A DNA stretch of 39,455 nt from Acetobacteraceae bacterium (GTDB lineage Bacteria; Pseudomonadota; Alphaproteobacteria; Acetobacterales; Acetobacteraceae): assembly GCA_009693865.1 (NCBI GenBank), contig SHWL01000025.1, forward strand, positions 1 through 39,455, given 5' to 3'. The notes beneath the pieces were generated by a model. The model did not search any database, was not told the origin of the DNA, and was given only the letters and a program-made list of their open reading frames with translations. Below, one piece after another: positions 2,782 through 13,619 of this stretch. A program made the position numbers and the translations under genes. Positions within the stretch are counted from its first letter, which is position 1. Every line of letters starts with the position of its first letter.

Positions 2782-3689
2782 GCACCTCCGTTTTCGACAC
2801 CGGTGGATATACCGCCGCGCCTGAGTTGCCCGATGTGCTGCCCGAGCCGAAACAACGCGGCCGGATCATGGGCTTCGTCTACGGTCATCCCACCATCGTG
2901 TTGGGCGGGTCCGTGGTCGCGCTGATGGTCCTGATCGCCATTTTCGCGCCGTTCCTGTTCACCGTGGATCCGACGGCGCTGGCGCCCGCCCGCCGCACGC
3001 GCCCCCCATCCGAGTCATACTGGTTCGGCAGCGACATGCTGGGCCGCGACGTTTACTCGCGTGTGCTGTATGGCGCGCGGGTGTCGCTGACCGTCGGGTT
3101 CTCGGTCGCATTCCTCGCCGCCGTCATCGGCACCACGATCGGGCTGGTGGCCGGGTTCACCCGCTGGGTCGACACCATTGTCATGCGCATCATGGACGGG
3201 CTGATGTCGATCCCGGCGATCCTATTGGCGATCGCGTTGATGGCGCTGACCCGCGCGTCGATGAAAAACGTTATCATCGCGATCACGGTCGCGGAATTTC
3301 CTCGCGTCTGCCGCCTGGTACGCGGCGTCGTGCTGTCATTGCGCGAACAACCCTATGTGGAAGCCGCCATCGCTTCGGGCACCCGCGTACCTGTCATTAT
3401 CTGGAAGCACATTCTGCCAAACACGCTGGCCCCTTTGATGGTGCAGGCGACCTTCATCTGCGCCTCCGCCATGATCGCCGAAGCCACGCTTTCGTTCCTG
3501 GGTGCCGGCACGCCGCCGATCATCCCAAGCTGGGGCAACATCATGGCCGAGGGCCGCGCGCTGTGGCAGGTGAAACCCTATATCGTCTTCTTCCCCGCCG
3601 CGTTCCTGTGCGTCACCGTCCTCGCCGTTAACATGCTCGGTGACGGGCTGCGCGACGCGCTCGACCCCCGCCTCGCGAAACGGCTCTGA
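2778..3689 (+). CDS. ABC transporter permease, DppC/OppC type, TTG start
   Basis: Second membrane subunit of the importer, 303 residues. A cytoplasmic N-terminal tail of about 30 residues precedes the first hydrophobic helix, as usual for DppC. The motif [18 protein letters not shown] (near residue 82) is the conserved DppC segment ahead of the transmembrane core. The EAA coupling loop is at about 192-222 (YVEAAIASG...ILPNTLAP), and the C-terminus [11 protein letters not shown] is family-typical. The start is TTG at 2778, overlapping the TGA stop of the upstream permease as TTGA; no ATG fits the conserved N-terminus. The gene is followed by the ATPase gene after 5 bases. Family assignment is firm. 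Confidence 0.94.
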
Positions 3690-3694
3690 TCGCG

Positions 3695-4684
3695 ATGGCA
3701 TTACTTGAAGTCGAGAATCTGCAAACCCACTTCGCGACGCCGGGCGGGATAGTCCGCGCCGTGGACGGGATCTCGTTCCATGTCGACTCCGGCGAAACCG
3801 TGGCGGTCGTGGGCGAGTCCGGCTGCGGCAAGTCAGTCACGGCCATGTCCATCCTGCGGCTTATTCAGGAACCGCCGGGCAAAATCGAAGGCCGCATCAC
3901 CTTCGAAGGGCGCGAGCTGCTGTCGTTGCCCGAACCCGAAATGCGCGATATCCGCGGCAACGCGATTTCGATGATCTTCCAGGAGCCGATGACCAGCCTC
4001 AACCCGGTGCTGACCGTCGGCAAACAGATCGGCGAGACGGTGCAGTTGCACCAGGGTATGAACGCCGCCGAGGCGGAAAAGAAAGCGGTCGAGATGCTGA
4101 CCCTGGTGGGCATTCCCGCCCCGGCGCGGCGGGTGAAAGAATATCCGCACCAGCTTTCCGGCGGCATGCGTCAGCGGGTCATGATCGCCATGGCCCTGGC
4201 CTGCAATCCCAAGGTGCTGATCGCGGATGAGCCGACGACCGCGCTGGACGTCACCATTCAGGCCCAGATCCTGGACCTGATGCGCGACCTGAAAACGCGC
4301 CTTGGCTCCGCCATCATGCTGATCACCCACGACCTGGGCGTTGTCGCTGAAATGGCCGAGCGAGTGATCGTCATGTACGCCGGCCGCAAGGTGGAAGAGG
4401 CACATGTGAACGAGATTTTCGCTCGTCCGTTGCATCCCTATACGCGTGGGTTAATCGGTGCGGTGCCGAAACTTGGATCCTCGCTCGATCATGGTCCCCG
4501 CGAGAAACTCGCCGAAATTCCCGGGCTTGTTCCCAGTTTGCGGCAGCGGATCGTGGGGTGCGCCTTCGCGGGACGTTGCGAATTTGCCACGGATTTGTGC
4601 CATAAGGTCGCGCCCGCGATCGAAATGAAGGCGGACGGACACCTGGTTGCCTGCCATCACGCCGAACGCCGGATGGCCGCATGA
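3695..4684 (+). CDS. ABC transporter ATP-binding protein, DppD/OppD type
   Basis: First of two nucleotide-binding subunits that power the importer on the cytoplasmic face. In 329 residues it shows Walker A GESGCGKS (about 40-47), the ABC signature LSGGMRQR (about 154-161), Walker [13 protein letters not shown] (about 174-185) and the switch motif THDLGV. The C-terminal oligopeptide-transporter extension carries the usual cysteine pattern ([15 protein letters not shown] and a final ACHH), which in this family is often predicted to bind an iron-sulfur cluster. The stop TGA at 4682-4684 overlaps an ATG at 4681 (ATGA). That ATG now opens a junk-like 119-codon frame rather than the second ATPase, whose start lies 505 bases further on (see the staircase finding). 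Confidence 0.95.
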
Positions 4685-5040
4685 GCAACGCGCGTCCTTC
4701 GCTTCGCCTGCTCGTCATGGCCCTCCCCCGGCTTGACCGGGGGATTGACCGCATAGGCATCAGGATAAGGCCCTACGGGTGGGAGGCTCACTTCCAAAAC
4801 CGTCATGGCCCGGCTGGTCCGGGCCACCGGTCGCGTCACTGTGCTGGCATGGGTGGCCCGGACCAGCCGGGCCATGACGGTAAAAACGAGAACATCCATC
4901 TCCGAGCCAACGCGATCCCGATGCTTATGCGGCTTGTCCGGGCCATCCGTCGCGGCATACAGCTTAAACCTTTGGCGCGCATCGGCCATCCCGTGACACG
5001 CAATGAGCGCTCAGGTCAATTGTCAGGACTTTCTGTATGA
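4681..5040 (+). other. 119-codon linker frame inside the repeat region between the two ATPase genes
   Basis: This frame starts at an ATG overlapping the DppD stop (ATGA at 4681-4684). Its first codons read MSNARPSL, resembling the true start of the next ATPase (MSGVRPLL at 5186). The rest runs through palindromic repeat DNA, and its translation (RIRPYGWEAHFQNRHGPAG) is what such repeats give when read through, so it is unlikely to be a functional protein. It ends with TGA at 5038-5040, again overlapping an ATG at 5037 as ATGA. The plausible role is to carry ribosomes from dppD toward dppF by stop-start coupling. This is inference from frame structure only. Confidence 0.5.
4751..4881. repeat. 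Dispersed palindromic element with perfect 30-bp inverted arms
   Basis: A long inverted repeat has left arm 4799-4828 and right arm 4852-4881, which are perfect reverse complements (ACCGTCATGGCCCGGCTGGT... against its mirror), separated by 23 bases. Each arm is itself a smaller palindrome around GGCCCGG/CCGGGCC. The preceding segment 4751-4798 (GGCATCAGGATAAGGCCC, then GGGTGGGAGG, then CCAAAACC) recurs in reverse orientation at 8350-8404. It looks like a REP/BIME-like dispersed element, of the kind abundant between genes in high-GC alphaproteobacteria. Confidence 0.85.
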
Positions 5041-5209
5041 GCAGCGTGCGTCGTTTGACCCTTCTCGCCGTCATGGCCCGGCTCGACCGGGCCATCCGTC
5101 GCGGCACGTTGCTTAAAATCGTGGCACGAACACGCCATCCCGTGACATGCGACGAACGCGCAGGTCAATCATCAGGACTTCTAGTATGAGCGGCGTGCGT
5201 CCTTTACTC
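4931..5209 (+). repeat. Tandem duplication of about 149 bp ending in the DppF-type start codon
   Basis: Two adjacent units, about 4931-5060 and 5080-5209, align along their length with an offset of about 149-150 bases. Shared blocks in order are CCGGGCCATCCGTCGCGGCA, GCTTAAA, GCCATCCCGTGACA, CAGGTCAAT, TCAGGACT and ATGAGC-GCGTGCGTC. A partial third copy of the final block sits at 4681 (ATGAGCAACGCGCGTCCTT) at the end of dppD. The copies have diverged by scattered substitutions, so the duplication is not recent. Confidence 0.85.
5037..5189 (+). other. 50-codon linker frame, second duplicated start of the DppF-type gene
   Basis: A short frame beginning MSSVRRLTLLAVMARLD, clearly a copy of the DppF-type start region (ATGAGC-GCGTGCGTC is shared with 5186). 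It stays open for 50 codons through another palindrome and stops at TGA 5187-5189, overlapping the true DppF-type ATG at 5186 as ATGA. An AGGA ribosome-site core lies about ten bases upstream of the ATG, and the same feature (TCAGGACT) is repeated ahead of 5186. With the 4681 frame it makes a two-step bridge of four-base overlaps from dppD to dppF. A protein role is doubtful; a translational-coupling role is inferred. Confidence 0.45.
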
Positions 5210-6202
5210 GAGGTCAAGAACCTCAAGAAACATTTTCCCATTTATGGCGGCCTGTTGGGGCTGACCACCGGGCACGTCTTCGCCGTCGATGGTGTCAGTT
5301 TCGATATCGACAAAGGCGAGACATTGTCTCTGGTCGGTGAATCCGGTTGCGGCAAATCGACCGTCGGCAAAGCAATCCTGCGACTGTACCCGATCACCGG
5401 CGGTGAGGTGCATCTGGACGGCGAACGCATCGACAACATGTCCGCCAGCAAGCTGCGCCCGATGCGCCAGCGCGTGCAGGTTGTATTCCAGGATCCGTTC
5501 TCCAGCCTGAATCCGCGGATGAAAGTGCGGGATATTCTGGCCGAGCCGATCTTGAATTTTGGCCTGGCCAATGGCCGCCGCGAAGTCACCGAACGGGTCG
5601 AGGCGCTGATGGATAAGGTCCGCCTGCCCCGAGACTCGATCTGGCGGTTTCCGCATGAATTCTCGGGTGGTCAGAGGCAGCGCATCGGGATCGCGCGAGC
5701 ACTGGCGCCGGGGGCCGATCTGATCATTTGCGATGAGGCGGTGTCGGCGCTGGACGTGTCGGTGAAGGCGCAAATCATCAACCTGCTGGTCGATTTGCAG
5801 GATGAACTGGGCTTGGCTCTGCTGTTCATCAGTCACGATCTCGCGACCGTGGAGCATCTGACGCATCGCGTGGCGGTGATGTATCTTGGCAAGATTGTCG
5901 AGATATGCGACCGGCGGACTCTGTTCGCGACCTCGCACCATCCGTATACGCGAGCGTTATTATCAGCGGTCCCGGTCCCGGATCCAACAGCGAAACGAAA
6001 TCGAATCATTCTGACCGGGGATGTGCCGTCCCCGATCAATCCGCCATCCGGGTGCCGATTCCATACGCGGTGCCCTTTCGCGTTCGACCGGTGCCGCACC
6101 GAGGAGCCAATGTTGCGAGAGGTTGGCAGCGGGCATTCCTCAGCGTGTCATTTGACGCATGCGCCGGGGGAGGCGATCGAGGCGATGCGGGTGGCGGCCT
6201 GA
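5186..6202 (+). CDS. ABC transporter ATP-binding protein, DppF/OppF type
   Basis: Second ATPase of the peptide-type importer, 338 residues from the ATG at 5186. Motifs: Walker [10 protein letters not shown] (about 51-59), signature FSGGQRQR (about 159-166), Walker B LIICDEAVSALD (about 178-189), switch SHDLAT, then the C-terminal extension with GCRFHTRCPFAFDRC and ACH. I chose 5186 because its N-terminus (MSGVRPLLEVKNLKKHF) aligns with DppF proteins and an AGGA ribosome site lies at 5174-5177. An in-frame ATG at 5147 only adds repeat-derived residues. It should pair with the DppD-type subunit. It ends 9 bases before the stop of the convergent toxin gene. Confidence 0.95.
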   Translation: MSGVRPLLEVKNLKKHFPIYGGLLGLTTGHVFAVDGVSFDIDKGETLSLVGESGCGKSTVGKAILRLYPITGGEVHLDGERIDNMSASKLRPMRQRVQVVFQDPFSSLNPRMKVRDILAEPILNFGLANGRREVTERVEALMDKVRLPRDSIWRFPHEFSGGQRQRIGIARALAPGADLIICDEAVSALDVSVKAQIINLLVDLQDELGLALLFISHDLATVEHLTHRVAVMYLGKIVEICDRRTLFATSHHPYTRALLSAVPVPDPTAKRNRIILTGDVPSPINPPSGCRFHTRCPFAFDRCRTEEPMLREVGSGHSSACHLTHAPGEAIEAMRVAA

Positions 6203-6211
6203 GAGCATCAT

Positions 6212-6631
6212 TCACGACAACGCCCACGGATCGATCAACGGAACGCCACACCCCTCGAACCCACCGATATCCCGCGTCACCACGCTTGCGCCAAGCGATC
6301 GCGCGACCGAAGCAATCATCAGATCGAGCGTCGTCCCCGGCCGGCCCATCCGACGGCGATCCGCGAATATTACGGCATACGCCGTCGCGGCTTCGATATC
6401 GAACGGCAACAAACGCCCGTTGAATTCATCGAACATCGCGCGCGCCGCCTCTTCAAGATCGCGACGGCGCCGGCCTTCCGTCATCACCGCCAGCCCGGAA
6501 AATATCTCCGCGTGAGAGATGGTCGTCGTGAACAGGCGTCCCTCGTCCTGACCCGCGATCCATTCCGTTACCTCGGGCACCGGACGCACGTGCATCATCG
6601 CGGACAGGATGTTGGTATCGAGAACGAACAT
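6212..6631 (-). CDS. fitB: PIN-domain toxin, FitB/VapC type
   Basis: Predicted endoribonuclease toxin of a type II toxin-antitoxin pair, 139 residues. The PIN fold is marked by MFVLDTNILSAM at the N-terminus and by four acidic positions for metal binding: Asp5, Glu42 (SHAEIFSGL), Asp103 (TTLDLMIA) and Asp121 (VTRDIGGF). The PFD segment near residue 77 and the closing DPW motif match FitB. The ATG at 6631 overlaps the antitoxin stop by one base (TGATG); a TTG three bases upstream is a less likely start. The gene is convergent with the DppF-type gene. Known family members cleave RNA and are silenced by the partner antitoxin. No inactivating change is visible. Confidence 0.92.
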   Translation of the reverse strand: MFVLDTNILSAMMHVRPVPEVTEWIAGQDEGRLFTTTISHAEIFSGLAVMTEGRRRRDLEEAARAMFDEFNGRLLPFDIEAATAYAVIFADRRRMGRPGTTLDLMIASVARSLGASVVTRDIGGFEGCGVPLIDPWALS

Positions 6632-6882
6632 CAATCGAAGGCGGGCGGTTCACGTGAAGGCTCCCGCGGCGGCAGGTCAAGATCGACACCGCCAATCGCC
6701 GCGAACCGCGCATGAATGCGCTCGGCGAGGTTGCCTCTCGACGGGGCGTTCGTGCGCGTGAGCAGGACTGCCCGAAGGATATCTCTGGCTTCAGCCTCCA
6801 TTGAGCGCCCGTGCTCCGCGGCGCGAACGCGCAGCCGCTCCTTCACTGCGGAATCGAGATTGCGAATGGTCAACATGGCCAT
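6631..6882 (-). CDS. fitA: Ribbon-helix-helix antitoxin, FitA type
   Basis: Antitoxin of the pair, 83 residues. Residues 3-42 form the ribbon-helix-helix DNA-binding region: MLTIRNLDSAVKERLRVRAA then GRSMEAEARDILR. The C-terminal part (RIHARFAAIGGVDLDLPPRE) fits the FitA tail that wraps the toxin. I chose the ATG at 6882 because GGGAGG lies 11 bases upstream and the fold begins here; a longer frame back to 7005 has no support. FitA-type proteins repress their own operon together with the toxin, and a fitting promoter and palindrome are present just upstream (6910-6938). Confidence 0.9.
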   Translation of the reverse strand: MAMLTIRNLDSAVKERLRVRAAEHGRSMEAEARDILRAVLLTRTNAPSRGNLAERIHARFAAIGGVDLDLPPREPSREPPAFD

Positions 6883-6909
6883 CGGCGATGGGGCCTCCCG
6901 AGTGACTGC

Positions 6910-6938
6910 ATTGTACTCAATGAAAGCATTGACAGCAA
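6910..6938 (-). promoter_or_regulatory. fitAB promoter with operator-like palindrome in the spacer
   Basis: On the minus strand a -35 box TTGCTG (6933-6938) and a -10 box TACAAT (6910-6915) are separated by 17 bases. The palindrome TCAATG-CTTT-CATTGA occupies 6917-6932, nearly the whole spacer, with perfect six-base arms. A ribbon-helix-helix repressor bound there would block RNA polymerase. The match to sigma-70 consensus and the palindrome are seen directly; binding by FitA is inferred from family behaviour. Confidence 0.7.
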
Positions 6939-7246
6939 GGTTTATCGTACCAACACCATTTGCGCGGTCACGGCGACAGACGCTTCGTCGGGGCCCACGA
7001 TACACATCCTGGCCCCGAGCGACGCCACCCGGATCCCCGATGCCCAGGAGATCATGCCATCAGGAAACATTCCCCGCCCCGCGTGCCAGTACGGCAGCCC
7101 TCCAATATCCCGGCAAACCAGAACCGCCTCGCACCCTCGCTTGCCCTCTCAATGGTGCCGGGCCTAATCTGGGATCGCGACGGGATCCTCCCATCAGGTT
7201 CGAAGGGGACAACGCCGCCAATATCGTTCTGCGAAGGGAGGAGACC
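6939..7246. other. Intergenic stretch between fitAB promoter and the gluconolactonase-like gene
   Basis: About 300 bases without a gene I can support. Frames crossing it have no convincing protein character. The only recognisable signal is the strong ribosome site GGGAGGAGA at the right edge, serving the start at 7247. A promoter for that gene should lie here but no clear -35/-10 pair stands out. Confidence 0.5.
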
Positions 7247-8254
7247 ATGTGGGCTCAACACCGCATCTCCCTCCGGCACACGCTGAAATTGTCTGTCACG
7301 ACAGGAGATCTCGTCATGTCTGGTGGAAGCCAAGCCCAATCGTCGAAGCGGATCGAGCAACTGGATCCCGCGCTGGAAAAGATCATCTCTGTATCAGAAC
7401 CAATCCACGACCTGGCCGACGGGTTCGGCGGTGCGCAGGGCCCGGCGGAAGGCCCGGTCTGGTGGAAAGAAGGCGGCTATTTGCTGTTCAGCGATATTCA
7501 TAACAATAAGCGTATGAAATATCAGCCCGGCGCGGGCGTGTCATTATTCCACGAACCGACCAACCGCGCCAACGGATTGACCCGCGACCTCCAGGGGAGG
7601 TTGATCGCCTGCGAGCACGACTCAAGACGCGTCACCCGCCAGGAACTCGACGGCAGCATCACGGTGGTCGCGAACAGCTTCCAGGGTCGGCAACTTAACC
7701 GGCCCAACGATGTCGTGGTGAAGTCCGACGGCTGCATCTATTTCACCGATCCGTGGACCAGCCCCTTACCGGCCGAGCAATGGGACCTGACCTTTTCCGG
7801 CGTGTATCGTGTGACCCCCGATCTCGGCACGTTGACCCTGCTCATTGGCGACTTCGTGGTACCGAACGGTCTGGCGTTCTCTCCCGACGAGAATATCCTT
7901 TACATCAATGACTCTCGCCGCGCGCATATCAGGGCATTTGACCTGATGCCCAATGGCGCGCTCGCGAAGCAGACCGACCGGGTCTTCGCCGATTTGAGTG
8001 GGAGCGAACCCGGCGTTCCCGATGGCATGAAAGTCGACGCCGAAGGCAACGTTTATTGCGGCGGGGCCGGCGGGATATGGATCATGAATTCCGCGGGCAA
8101 GAAACTTGGCCGCATCGTGCATGGGGCGCCCGCCACCACCAACATCGCCTTCGGTGGCGATGACTGGAAGACCCTGTATTTTACCAGCCGTAACCACCTG
8201 GGCTCGGTCAATGTGAAAATCCCGGGCATCCCGGTGCCCGTCGGGAAAAAATGA
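7247..8254 (+). CDS. SMP-30/gluconolactonase-like six-bladed propeller protein with altered Tat signal
   Basis: Predicted calcium-dependent lactonase or related hydrolase of the SMP-30/gluconolactonase/LRE family, 335 residues. Family segments include GPAEGPVWWKEGGYLLFSDI (about 78-97), RPNDVVVKSDGCIYFTDP, FVVPNGLAFSPDENILYIND and GVPDGMKVDAEGNVYCGG, the repeated Asn/Asp-bearing loops that line the metal site. The N-terminus SLRHTLKLSVTTGDLVMSGG followed by SQAQS resembles Tat signals of relatives, but the twin arginine reads Arg-His and an Asp interrupts the core. I chose the ATG at 7247 (GGGAGGAGA just upstream) because it keeps this signal; a second ATG at 7316 also has a ribosome site (AGGAGA) and would give a cytoplasmic protein. 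Substrate is unknown. Confidence 0.87.
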   Translation: MWAQHRISLRHTLKLSVTTGDLVMSGGSQAQSSKRIEQLDPALEKIISVSEPIHDLADGFGGAQGPAEGPVWWKEGGYLLFSDIHNNKRMKYQPGAGVSLFHEPTNRANGLTRDLQGRLIACEHDSRRVTRQELDGSITVVANSFQGRQLNRPNDVVVKSDGCIYFTDPWTSPLPAEQWDLTFSGVYRVTPDLGTLTLLIGDFVVPNGLAFSPDENILYINDSRRAHIRAFDLMPNGALAKQTDRVFADLSGSEPGVPDGMKVDAEGNVYCGGAGGIWIMNSAGKKLGRIVHGAPATTNIAFGGDDWKTLYFTSRNHLGSVNVKIPGIPVPVGKK

Positions 8255-8319
8255 CTTTGCCGTGACCGGCCGGCCACGGCTTCCTCGTCGTGGACCGGAG
8301 ACGGATATTCTCTTCTCAT

Positions 8320-8404
8320 CGTCATGGCCCGGACGAGCCGGGCCATGACGGTTTTGGGAGAAATCCTCCCACCCCTTGGGCCTTATCCTGATGCCAATGC
8401 TGCT
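8320..8404 (-). repeat. Second copy of the dispersed palindromic element
   Basis: The hairpin 8320-8350 has 13-base arms CGTCATGGCCCGG and CCGGGCCATGACG around a 5-base loop. Read on the minus strand, the flank 8350-8404 repeats the 4751-4798 segment (GGCATCAGGATAAGGCCC, GGGTGGGAGG, CCAAAACC). It sits between two convergent genes (stops at 8254 and 8439) and may also serve as a bidirectional terminator, though no T-run follows. Confidence 0.8.
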
Positions 8405-8438
8405 CGTCCCGGCCACGACGAGGGACAGACCGCCACTT

Positions 8439-9209
8439 CTACTTCGGCGCCTCGGGCTGCTCCATCAGCGCCAGCCCTTCCATCGCCAATCCATACCCCA
8501 GCAAGTCCTGCATGCGTTTCTTCAGATATTCGGTGAACATCAACCGCGTGTAACGCAGCAGCAGCGTCGGCTTTTGAGCCAGCATCTCCGCGTGTTCCCA
8601 CGCCCGCGCCAGCACCTTGTCCGCCGGCAGGACTTCCGCGACCAAACCCAGATCCTTGGCCTCATGCGCCGAAAGCGTCTGACCGGTCAGCAGGAAATAA
8701 CGTCCGCGATTCAGGCCCAGCAGGATCGGCATGACGATATGCATCCCGTCCCCCGGCACCAGCCCATTCGGGAAATGCGCGGAATCCTGGAACGCCGCCG
8801 TATCGGACGCCAGAACGATGTCCGACAGCAACGGAATCTCGCCATGCCGCCAGGCCGGACCGTTGATCGCCGAGATCACCGGAACCTCGATATTCAGCAG
8901 GTTCATCAGCAACGCCCGGCCTTCCCAATGCACGCGGTCGAACGCATTGGCCGTCAGGCCCGCGCTGATCGTGCTCTGCCCGGGAGTGGCGCGCACACCG
9001 GACCATTCGTCGCCGGTGCCGGTCATGATCACCACGCGGTTGTCCCGGTCGCGTCCAACATCGGCGAATGCATCGGGCAACTCCCCGTGCGGCCCGAGGC
9101 CCCAACGCAACGGGCCATTATCGGTATGAAACCGCATCTCCAGGATGCCCCGCTCGCGGCGCATGTGGATGCAGCTGTATTTCTTCGCATAACTTTCGAA
9201 GCCGCTCAT
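8439..9209 (-). CDS. Crotonase-fold beta-diketone hydrolase, 6-oxocamphor hydrolase-like
   Basis: Crotonase-superfamily enzyme of 256 residues. It resembles 6-oxocamphor hydrolase, which cleaves the C-C bond of cyclic beta-diketones by a retro-Claisen reaction, more than ordinary enoyl-CoA hydratases. The five residues known to matter in that enzyme have counterparts here: His41 (GPHGEL), His122 (NGPAWRHGEIP), His145 (DSAHFPNG), Asp154 (VPGDG) and Glu244 (LAMEGL). SIEVPVI-type and GLNRGRYFLLTGQ-type segments also match. The ATG at 9209 has an AGGGAGG site upstream; the frame extends further but without support. It is the last gene of a minus-strand operon with the cupin and MFS genes. The true substrate is unknown and need not be camphor-derived. 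Confidence 0.85.
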   Translation of the reverse strand: MSGFESYAKKYSCIHMRRERGILEMRFHTDNGPLRWGLGPHGELPDAFADVGRDRDNRVVIMTGTGDEWSGVRATPGQSTISAGLTANAFDRVHWEGRALLMNLLNIEVPVISAINGPAWRHGEIPLLSDIVLASDTAAFQDSAHFPNGLVPGDGMHIVMPILLGLNRGRYFLLTGQTLSAHEAKDLGLVAEVLPADKVLARAWEHAEMLAQKPTLLLRYTRLMFTEYLKKRMQDLLGYGLAMEGLALMEQPEAPK

Positions 9210-13310: not shown

Positions 13311-13619
13311 ATCCGTGACAATTCTCGCTTTTCACGCTCCGGCCAGGACGCGCCGCCGGAGCATTTGCCTTGTATGCGCGCGAATTGGTTAACAAGCCGT
13401 AAAGACAAACCTTTGCCGGCGATCGTCGTGGAAATGAGGTCACGGACTGCCATGCCCGCGTCACACCAACCGTCCGAACGCAGGACTCTTACCCATCGCG
13501 TCATGGCTCGGCTCGATCGGGCCATCTGGTCCGGCACAGTGCAGCTACGGATGGTCCGATCACGTCAGGCCATGACGTGGAGGGGCGCTGCCATGGGTCA
13601 AGCGTTCGGGCCGTTGGTG
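13311..13619. other. Intergenic region with an interrupted palindrome
   Basis: About 300 bases between the PAS regulator and the small conserved protein. It holds a diverged member of the dispersed palindrome family at about 13497-13577: GCGTCATGGCTCGGCTCGAT on the left and CAGGCCATGACGT on the right, around roughly 45 bases. No gene is supported; plus-strand frames crossing it are repeat read-through. Confidence 0.6.
13497..13577. repeat. Diverged copy of the dispersed palindromic element
   Basis: The outer arms GCGTCATGG and CCATGACGT are complementary except at the edges, with an inner GGCTCGATCGGGCCAT palindrome. The internal part differs from the copies at 4751 and 8320, and the GGCATCAGGATAAGG flank is absent, so this is a decayed or sub-type copy. 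Confidence 0.6.

Follow-up and report, generated by a model that had tools for sequence, protein, structure and literature searches.

Staircases of ATGA stop-start overlaps span CGTC-REP inserts at dppD-dppF and other gene junctions in an Acetobacteraceae genome

Introduction

How can repeat DNA enter a tight operon junction and leave the genes on either side linked? The question is raised by a locus in the window studied here, the whole 39,455-nt stretch formed by positions 1 to 39,455 (forward strand) of contig SHWL01000025.1 from an Acetobacteraceae bacterium (GCA_009693865.1, a draft of 209 contigs; genome G000 below). It encodes a peptide-type ABC operon (solute-binding protein, two permeases, two ATPases) whose last two genes are of the dppD and dppF types. 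The -4 overlap is a known coupling device, enriched for the subunits of complexes (PMC6728339, PMC10666635), and the dpp genes, like ATGA termination-reinitiation pairs, carry such overlaps; unlike such pairs, they lie 501 nt apart and are linked by intervening frames through three ATGA stop-start overlaps (4681, 5037 and 5186).

An earlier note on this DNA had proposed that dppD and dppF once overlapped directly and that REP-like palindromic DNA expanded between them, each copy keeping the stop-start overlap. Of the known repeat families, the CGTC-REPs are characterised by a CGTC end, an 8-9 bp stem starting with AT and a 4-5 nt loop, and occur mainly as head-to-head dimers; they are mostly alphaproteobacterial and sit between co-oriented and convergent genes, and RAYTs are linked to GTAG repeats (PMC3733652).

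Results

The staircase is correct to the base as the earlier note had drawn it, with frames of 119 and 50 codons stepping across the three ATGAs (Table 1). The insert consists of two units, of 356 and 149 nt, which share a 127-nt direct repeat (79% identity), and in each unit the frame in use is the sole open frame of six. The claimed duplication of the start region is equally borne out: there are three copies of the dppF start, each with its ATGA kept, and over the 20 nt that follow the first four letters the first copy matches dppF at 14/20 and the second at 15/20, a likeness that exceeds chance (5,852 cross comparisons among other spacers give a mean of 5.5, sd 2.0). Elsewhere in the same operon, a stop-start TTGA overlap (2778-2781) also joins the two permease genes, and directly 3' of dppF, in the opposite direction, lie genes for a FitA-like antitoxin (PF22513) and then a PIN-domain protein (PF01850) (6212-6879, - strand).

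Table 1. Features of the dppD-dppF junction, in window coordinates.
Feature	Position	Strand	Remarks
DppD-type ABC ATPase gene	3695..4684	+	stop TGA inside ATGA 4681-4684; ABC_tran + oligo_HPY
Linker frame 1, 119 codons	4681..5040	+	from the dppD stop overlap to TGA 5038-5040 inside ATGA 5037-5040
dppF start region, copy 1 (MSNARPSL)	4681..4704	+	14/20 nt match
Intact CGTC-REP head-to-head dimer, 79 nt	4801..4879	+	within unit 1
AGGA, Shine-Dalgarno-like	5025..5028	+	8 nt 5' of ATG 5037
Linker frame 2, 50 codons	5037..5189	+	from ATGA 5037-5040 to TGA 5187-5189 inside ATGA 5186-5189
dppF start region, copy 2 (MSSVRRLT)	5037..5060	+	15/20 nt match
CGTC-REP forward arm: CGTC, 9-bp stem, 5-nt loop	5069..5097	+	unit 2
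REP dimer second arm, decayed	5103..5146	+	alignment score matched by 0/300 block shuffles
AGGA, Shine-Dalgarno-like	5174..5177	+	8 nt 5' of the dppF ATG
DppF-type ABC ATPase gene	5186..6202	+	start ATG inside ATGA 5186-5189; ABC_tran + oligo_HPY

The palindromic DNA can be assigned to a family. From 5069 onwards the sequence CGTC ATGGCCCGG CTCGA CCGGGCCAT agrees in its CGTC tag, stem and loop with the published description of CGTC-REPs, and the 30-nt arms of unit 1 (4799-4828 and 4852-4881) are perfectly complementary. What the earlier note called REP-like is a dimer of the CGTC-REP type. It is decayed in unit 2 but intact in unit 1 (4801-4879), where it is a portion of a longer element that is multicopy in the window's genome. 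The decay was assessed from the best alignment of 5103-5146 against 60 distinct intact REP dimers (from the window and 160 fetched stretches), compared with 300 block shuffles; a decayed second arm reached significance in dpp unit 2 alone, and in none of unit 1, G007 (a relative described below) and murB-ddl. In an Rfam scan of 3500-8600 the palindrome drew five microRNA matches, none of which reached the gathering score; we discarded them as hairpin artefacts.

Searches with the arm pattern (at most 2 mismatches) gave 160 forward and 153 reverse matches in G000, with 0 for the reversed control, and 38 and 35 in G007. Sites of the repeat are found in many contexts: in the first 40 stretches and the window, 52 REP site clusters comprise 25 between co-oriented, 14 between convergent and 9 between divergent genes, 2 within called genes and 2 at stretch ends. 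The window itself has further CGTC-REP arms at 8321-8349 and 13500-13576, one site being convergent and one co-oriented without a staircase. An associated RAYT transposase was sought through Y1_Tnp (PF01797): a single gene was found in G007 (G007:C60:30789-31145, L121) and none in G000 (81% complete), G030 or G022; G000, at that completeness, and G030 combine many REP matches with no PF01797 gene found.

If the repeat entered an existing overlap, relatives that lack it should retain the direct junction, as the earlier note predicted. Among 33 genomes of the genus, a dppF orthologue was present in 28 at the cut-off used, and with one locus from another genus of the same family 29 dpp loci could be compared: 25 are direct at -4, 1 is direct at -1, 2 (G000 and G007) carry an insert and 1 falls at a contig end, so that the prediction holds in 26/26 parsed relatives without an insert. 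G007, whose DppF is most similar to the window's, has a one-step version, a single 122-nt unit with ATGA at both ends, open for 41 codons and carrying the same REP arm as the window. The dpp junction exists, in other words, in empty, one-step and two-step states. The unit lengths of 122, 149 and 356 nt are each 2 mod 3, the phase needed for a -4/-4 chain. Of 21 more distant named junctions, scored by eye alone, 19 have an ATGA or GTGA that coincides with the matched start or shortly precedes it, the exceptions being L024 and L030.

The pattern recurs at other junctions of the window's genome, where the chain runs uninterrupted through REP inserts at murB-ddl, phnK-phnL and a GluRS-family junction; the cases of recurrence taken further were chosen for being staircases. 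At murB-ddl (names from NCBIfam; 30 loci, 27 parsed), 26 junctions are direct at -4 and G000 is the sole exception, with a 127-nt REP insert, ATGA at both ends, a 44-codon open linker and a duplicated ddl start (15/20 nt). Among the staircases, duplication of the start past the ATGA is clear at dpp and murB-ddl only. At the GluRS-family junction (L155), whose downstream gene belongs to the glutamyl-tRNA synthetase family and falls under the NCBIfam cut-off for GltX, a direct overlap was predicted beforehand and is found, at -4, in 24/24 parsed relatives (26 other loci found, one of which reads N at the junction).

The phnK-phnL junction is more varied. Its 29 loci yield 27 adjacent pairs, 13 direct at -4 and 14 spaced (11 direct and 13 spaced under a second filter set), and the spaced junctions keep the chain in 8/14 and lack it in 6/14; in five of these six, stops interrupt an insert that appears homologous. 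Chains are open in both G000 (616 nt) and G007 (223 nt), with GTG as the last start in both, and the G007 spacer contains no REP by the arm pattern. The broken spacers indicate that such a junction can do without its chain. In eight relatives (L344, L345, L349, L356, L357, L361, L362 and L363), inserts after the phnK ATGA begin MSMQ or MSIQ and appear homologous by eye, three forming open chains to phnL and five being broken by stops; they may be a single insert seen at several stages of decay, or what was once a small gene.

Two other candidates from G007 were dropped as further examples: among other parsed pairs, xseB-tlyA is direct at -4 in 2/24 and direct at -1 in 5, and the ureA junction is direct at -4 in 0/26. 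As these chains do not go back to ancestral ATGA overlaps, some chains arise otherwise. Two further staircases were noted in passing. In L181 (G007, about 1924-2123), a CobW-type gene is followed by TGATG, a 61-codon linker, ATGA, a 5-codon frame, ATGA and a WD40-type gene, and the sole relative found (L377) is direct at -4; in L261 (G030), a 76-codon staircase with a REP dimer runs from a permease gene to a DppD-type gene and ends in TGATG, paralogues blurring its ancestral state.

Staircases are enriched at REP spacers. Genes were called in 160 stretches around listed REP copies of G000, G007 and G030, a subset of all copies, by a caller whose codon usage was trained against the other five frames (an earlier caller had put dppF on the wrong strand), and staircases were defined in co-oriented spacers of 40-700 nt by ATG or GTG starts and steps of -4 or -1. 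Pairs with the upstream stop outside the stretch, repeats of one spacer and spacers beyond 40-700 nt were omitted, as were L155 (whose true start lies 39 nt 5' of the start called) and L181 (because of its 5-codon step). Among the listed copies, 11/77 spacers with REP are staircases vs 4/110 without (Fisher p 0.012), or 7/77 vs 2/110 when starts are restricted to ATG (p 0.034). Without the two dpp rows the counts among listed copies are 9/75 vs 4/110 (p 0.040), and the ATG-only comparison is not significant (5/75 vs 2/110, p 0.12). These figures supersede an earlier count of 16/58 vs 3/81, which permitted TTG, distant starts and very short links but overlooked downstream genes truncated at stretch ends, and an earlier single-step count (ATG 5/58 vs 2/81; all starts up to 9/58 vs 3/81).

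A second comparison asks what an ATGA at the upstream stop is worth. Among the listed copies, REP spacers with a natural ATGA there are staircases in 6/14 cases, L155 being scored among the 8/14 non-staircases, vs 4/63 when the motif is added in silico to the remaining REP spacers (Fisher p 0.0018), a control that sets the base rate of such chains at about 6%; without both dpp rows the natural class retains 4/12 among listed copies (p 0.0195). In the listed stretches no comparable difference is seen for spacers that lack a REP (1/11 natural vs 7/99 in silico).

The linker peptides themselves have no Pfam match at E 0.001, and mean codon scores are negative in the linker frames and positive in dppD and dppF. 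A third-position bias in the changes between units 1 and 2 was looked for and none was seen, which is consistent with a frame retained for the passage of ribosomes and not for its peptide. The peptides show no apparent sign of conservation and would be expendable in the model proposed below; since they appear unconserved, the likely benefit of the linker frames would be that ribosomes are kept on the message.

Discussion

The dpp staircase is real, better supported than its first reading could know, and belongs to a wider pattern. The earlier proposal is supported in part, by the direct overlap in relatives, the duplicated ATGA, the one-step version in G007 and similar inserts at other junctions; the passage of ribosomes along the chain would be its predicted consequence, and as a principle it is anticipated by mycobacterial MIRUs (PMC12548453).

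We hypothesize, and hold to be probable, that a CGTC-REP entered an ATGA junction, that the junction was thereby duplicated, and that open, in-phase inserts survived as relays of coupling. In the starting state the dppD stop and dppF start would overlap as ATGA; a CGTC-type REP dimer would insert there and duplicate the junction (the ATGA with some 20 nt from the beginning of dppF), leaving ATGA at both insert ends. In the window's lineage a tandem duplication of the unit may have followed, after which a second, longer REP-bearing element would have entered the first copy. Inserts would persist if their length and an open frame let every stop overlap the next start, and ribosomes would then cross the chain by termination-reinitiation, unfolding the hairpins on the way. 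Survivorship would be the simplest cause, inserts that break coupling at such junctions being mostly lost. Since coupling is reported to need an overlap or very short spacing, inserts of 120-600 nt would be expected to disrupt it; at a spacing of about 20 nt coupling is nearly abolished (PMC10666635), and an untranslated, stably folded insert of hundreds of nucleotides should therefore uncouple dppF. The weight of the evidence for this reading lies in four things taken together: the phase, the duplicated ATGA, the empty sites and the recurrence at other junctions.

The staircases could instead be neutral by-products: the ATGA would be copied along whenever a unit inserts or is duplicated in tandem, a stop-poor, GC-rich repeat is open by chance, and no use by ribosomes is needed. 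Several observations lend this substance. When the 37 observed substitutions are placed randomly on unit 2 the frame stays open in 55% of trials, for which reason an open linker frame taken alone is weak evidence; the REP forward arm is stop-free in all three frames and the reverse arm holds an ATGA within itself; and 6/14 spaced phnK-phnL junctions lack a chain. Against it, supplying an ATGA in silico yields chains in just 4/63 REP spacers, the phase is kept in dpp units of three different lengths, and the phnK-phnL spacers of G000 and G007 are both open despite a length difference of 393 nt. On balance we regard a purely neutral origin as unlikely.

Nor is it easy to hold, and we think it rather unlikely, that dppF simply starts on its own, the AGGA before ATG 5186 recruiting fresh ribosomes and the linker frames being leftovers or a Rho shield. 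AGGA does lie 8 nt 5' of both inner ATGs and of the second ATG of G007, the first dpp ATG having GGA only, at 7 nt, and independent initiation at 5186 is possible from this motif and would weaken the relay reading. It would leave unexplained, however, that both insert ends keep ATGA or GTGA, together with an open frame, at dpp, murB-ddl, the GluRS-family junction and phnK-phnL, and the predicted fold of the linker region (4640-5240; -284 kcal/mol, z -7.2 against 20 shuffles) is so stable that the RNA, if untranslated, should be a burden. Active targeting of ATGA sites by REPs, as proposed for MIRUs, with selection minor, would be compatible with the entry and survival of inserts favoured here and could account for ATGA or GTGA at both insert ends of the same four junctions, but is very improbable as the main cause given the many REP copies elsewhere (14 convergent and 9 divergent among the 52 clusters), an upstream-stop ATGA that is not clearly enriched (14/77 spacers with REP vs 11/110 without, among listed copies), a REP that in the staircases displayed is mostly tens of nucleotides away from the ATGA, and the PF01797 gene not found in G000 (81% complete).

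The closest known parallel comes from the mycobacteria, which belong to a phylum other than that of the window organism and whose MIRUs as a rule sit at stop-start overlap sites, with DTGA as their target. These short repeats appear to integrate at start codons, with an ORF of their own coupled at -4 nt (PMC12548453, citing Supply et al. 1997), an arrangement said to minimise the impact of insertion (PMC12548453), and the linker inserts described here share the feature of a repeat ORF that overlaps the downstream start by 4 nt. They differ in that the repeat is a palindromic CGTC-REP dimer with many copies outside coupled junctions, staircases making up 11/77 co-oriented REP spacers among the listed copies, and in that orthologous junctions display empty and one-step states. 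The principle is already in print for MIRUs; what sets these loci apart is a palindromic REP as its carrier, in a different phylum. The CGTC-REP families, as portrayed in the parts of PMC3733652 drawn on here, share the CGTC end, stem, loop and head-to-head dimers and are presented as intergenic and intragenic repeats, not as chains of overlapping frames, which likewise do not figure in the corresponding parts of PMC5082802. Rickettsia palindromic elements are also palindromic repeats read as peptide inside genes (PMC3733652), but each lies inside one protein, whereas here separate small frames join two genes. In a search that left most subscription journals outside, we found no paper joining REPs to translational coupling at start codons.

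CGTC-REP dimers could well have entered ATGA-coupled junctions repeatedly in this genus and persisted as translated spacers, a MIRU-like solution reached independently by what would be an unrelated palindromic repeat, and we put this wider proposal forward tentatively. The loci suggest a route by which repeats may come to live in tight operons: they would arrive with a duplicated overlap and stay readable. The natural empty, single and double states of one junction make a coupling relay through meaningless small frames open to experimental test, and they counsel caution in annotation, where such small ORFs may be bridges and not genes.
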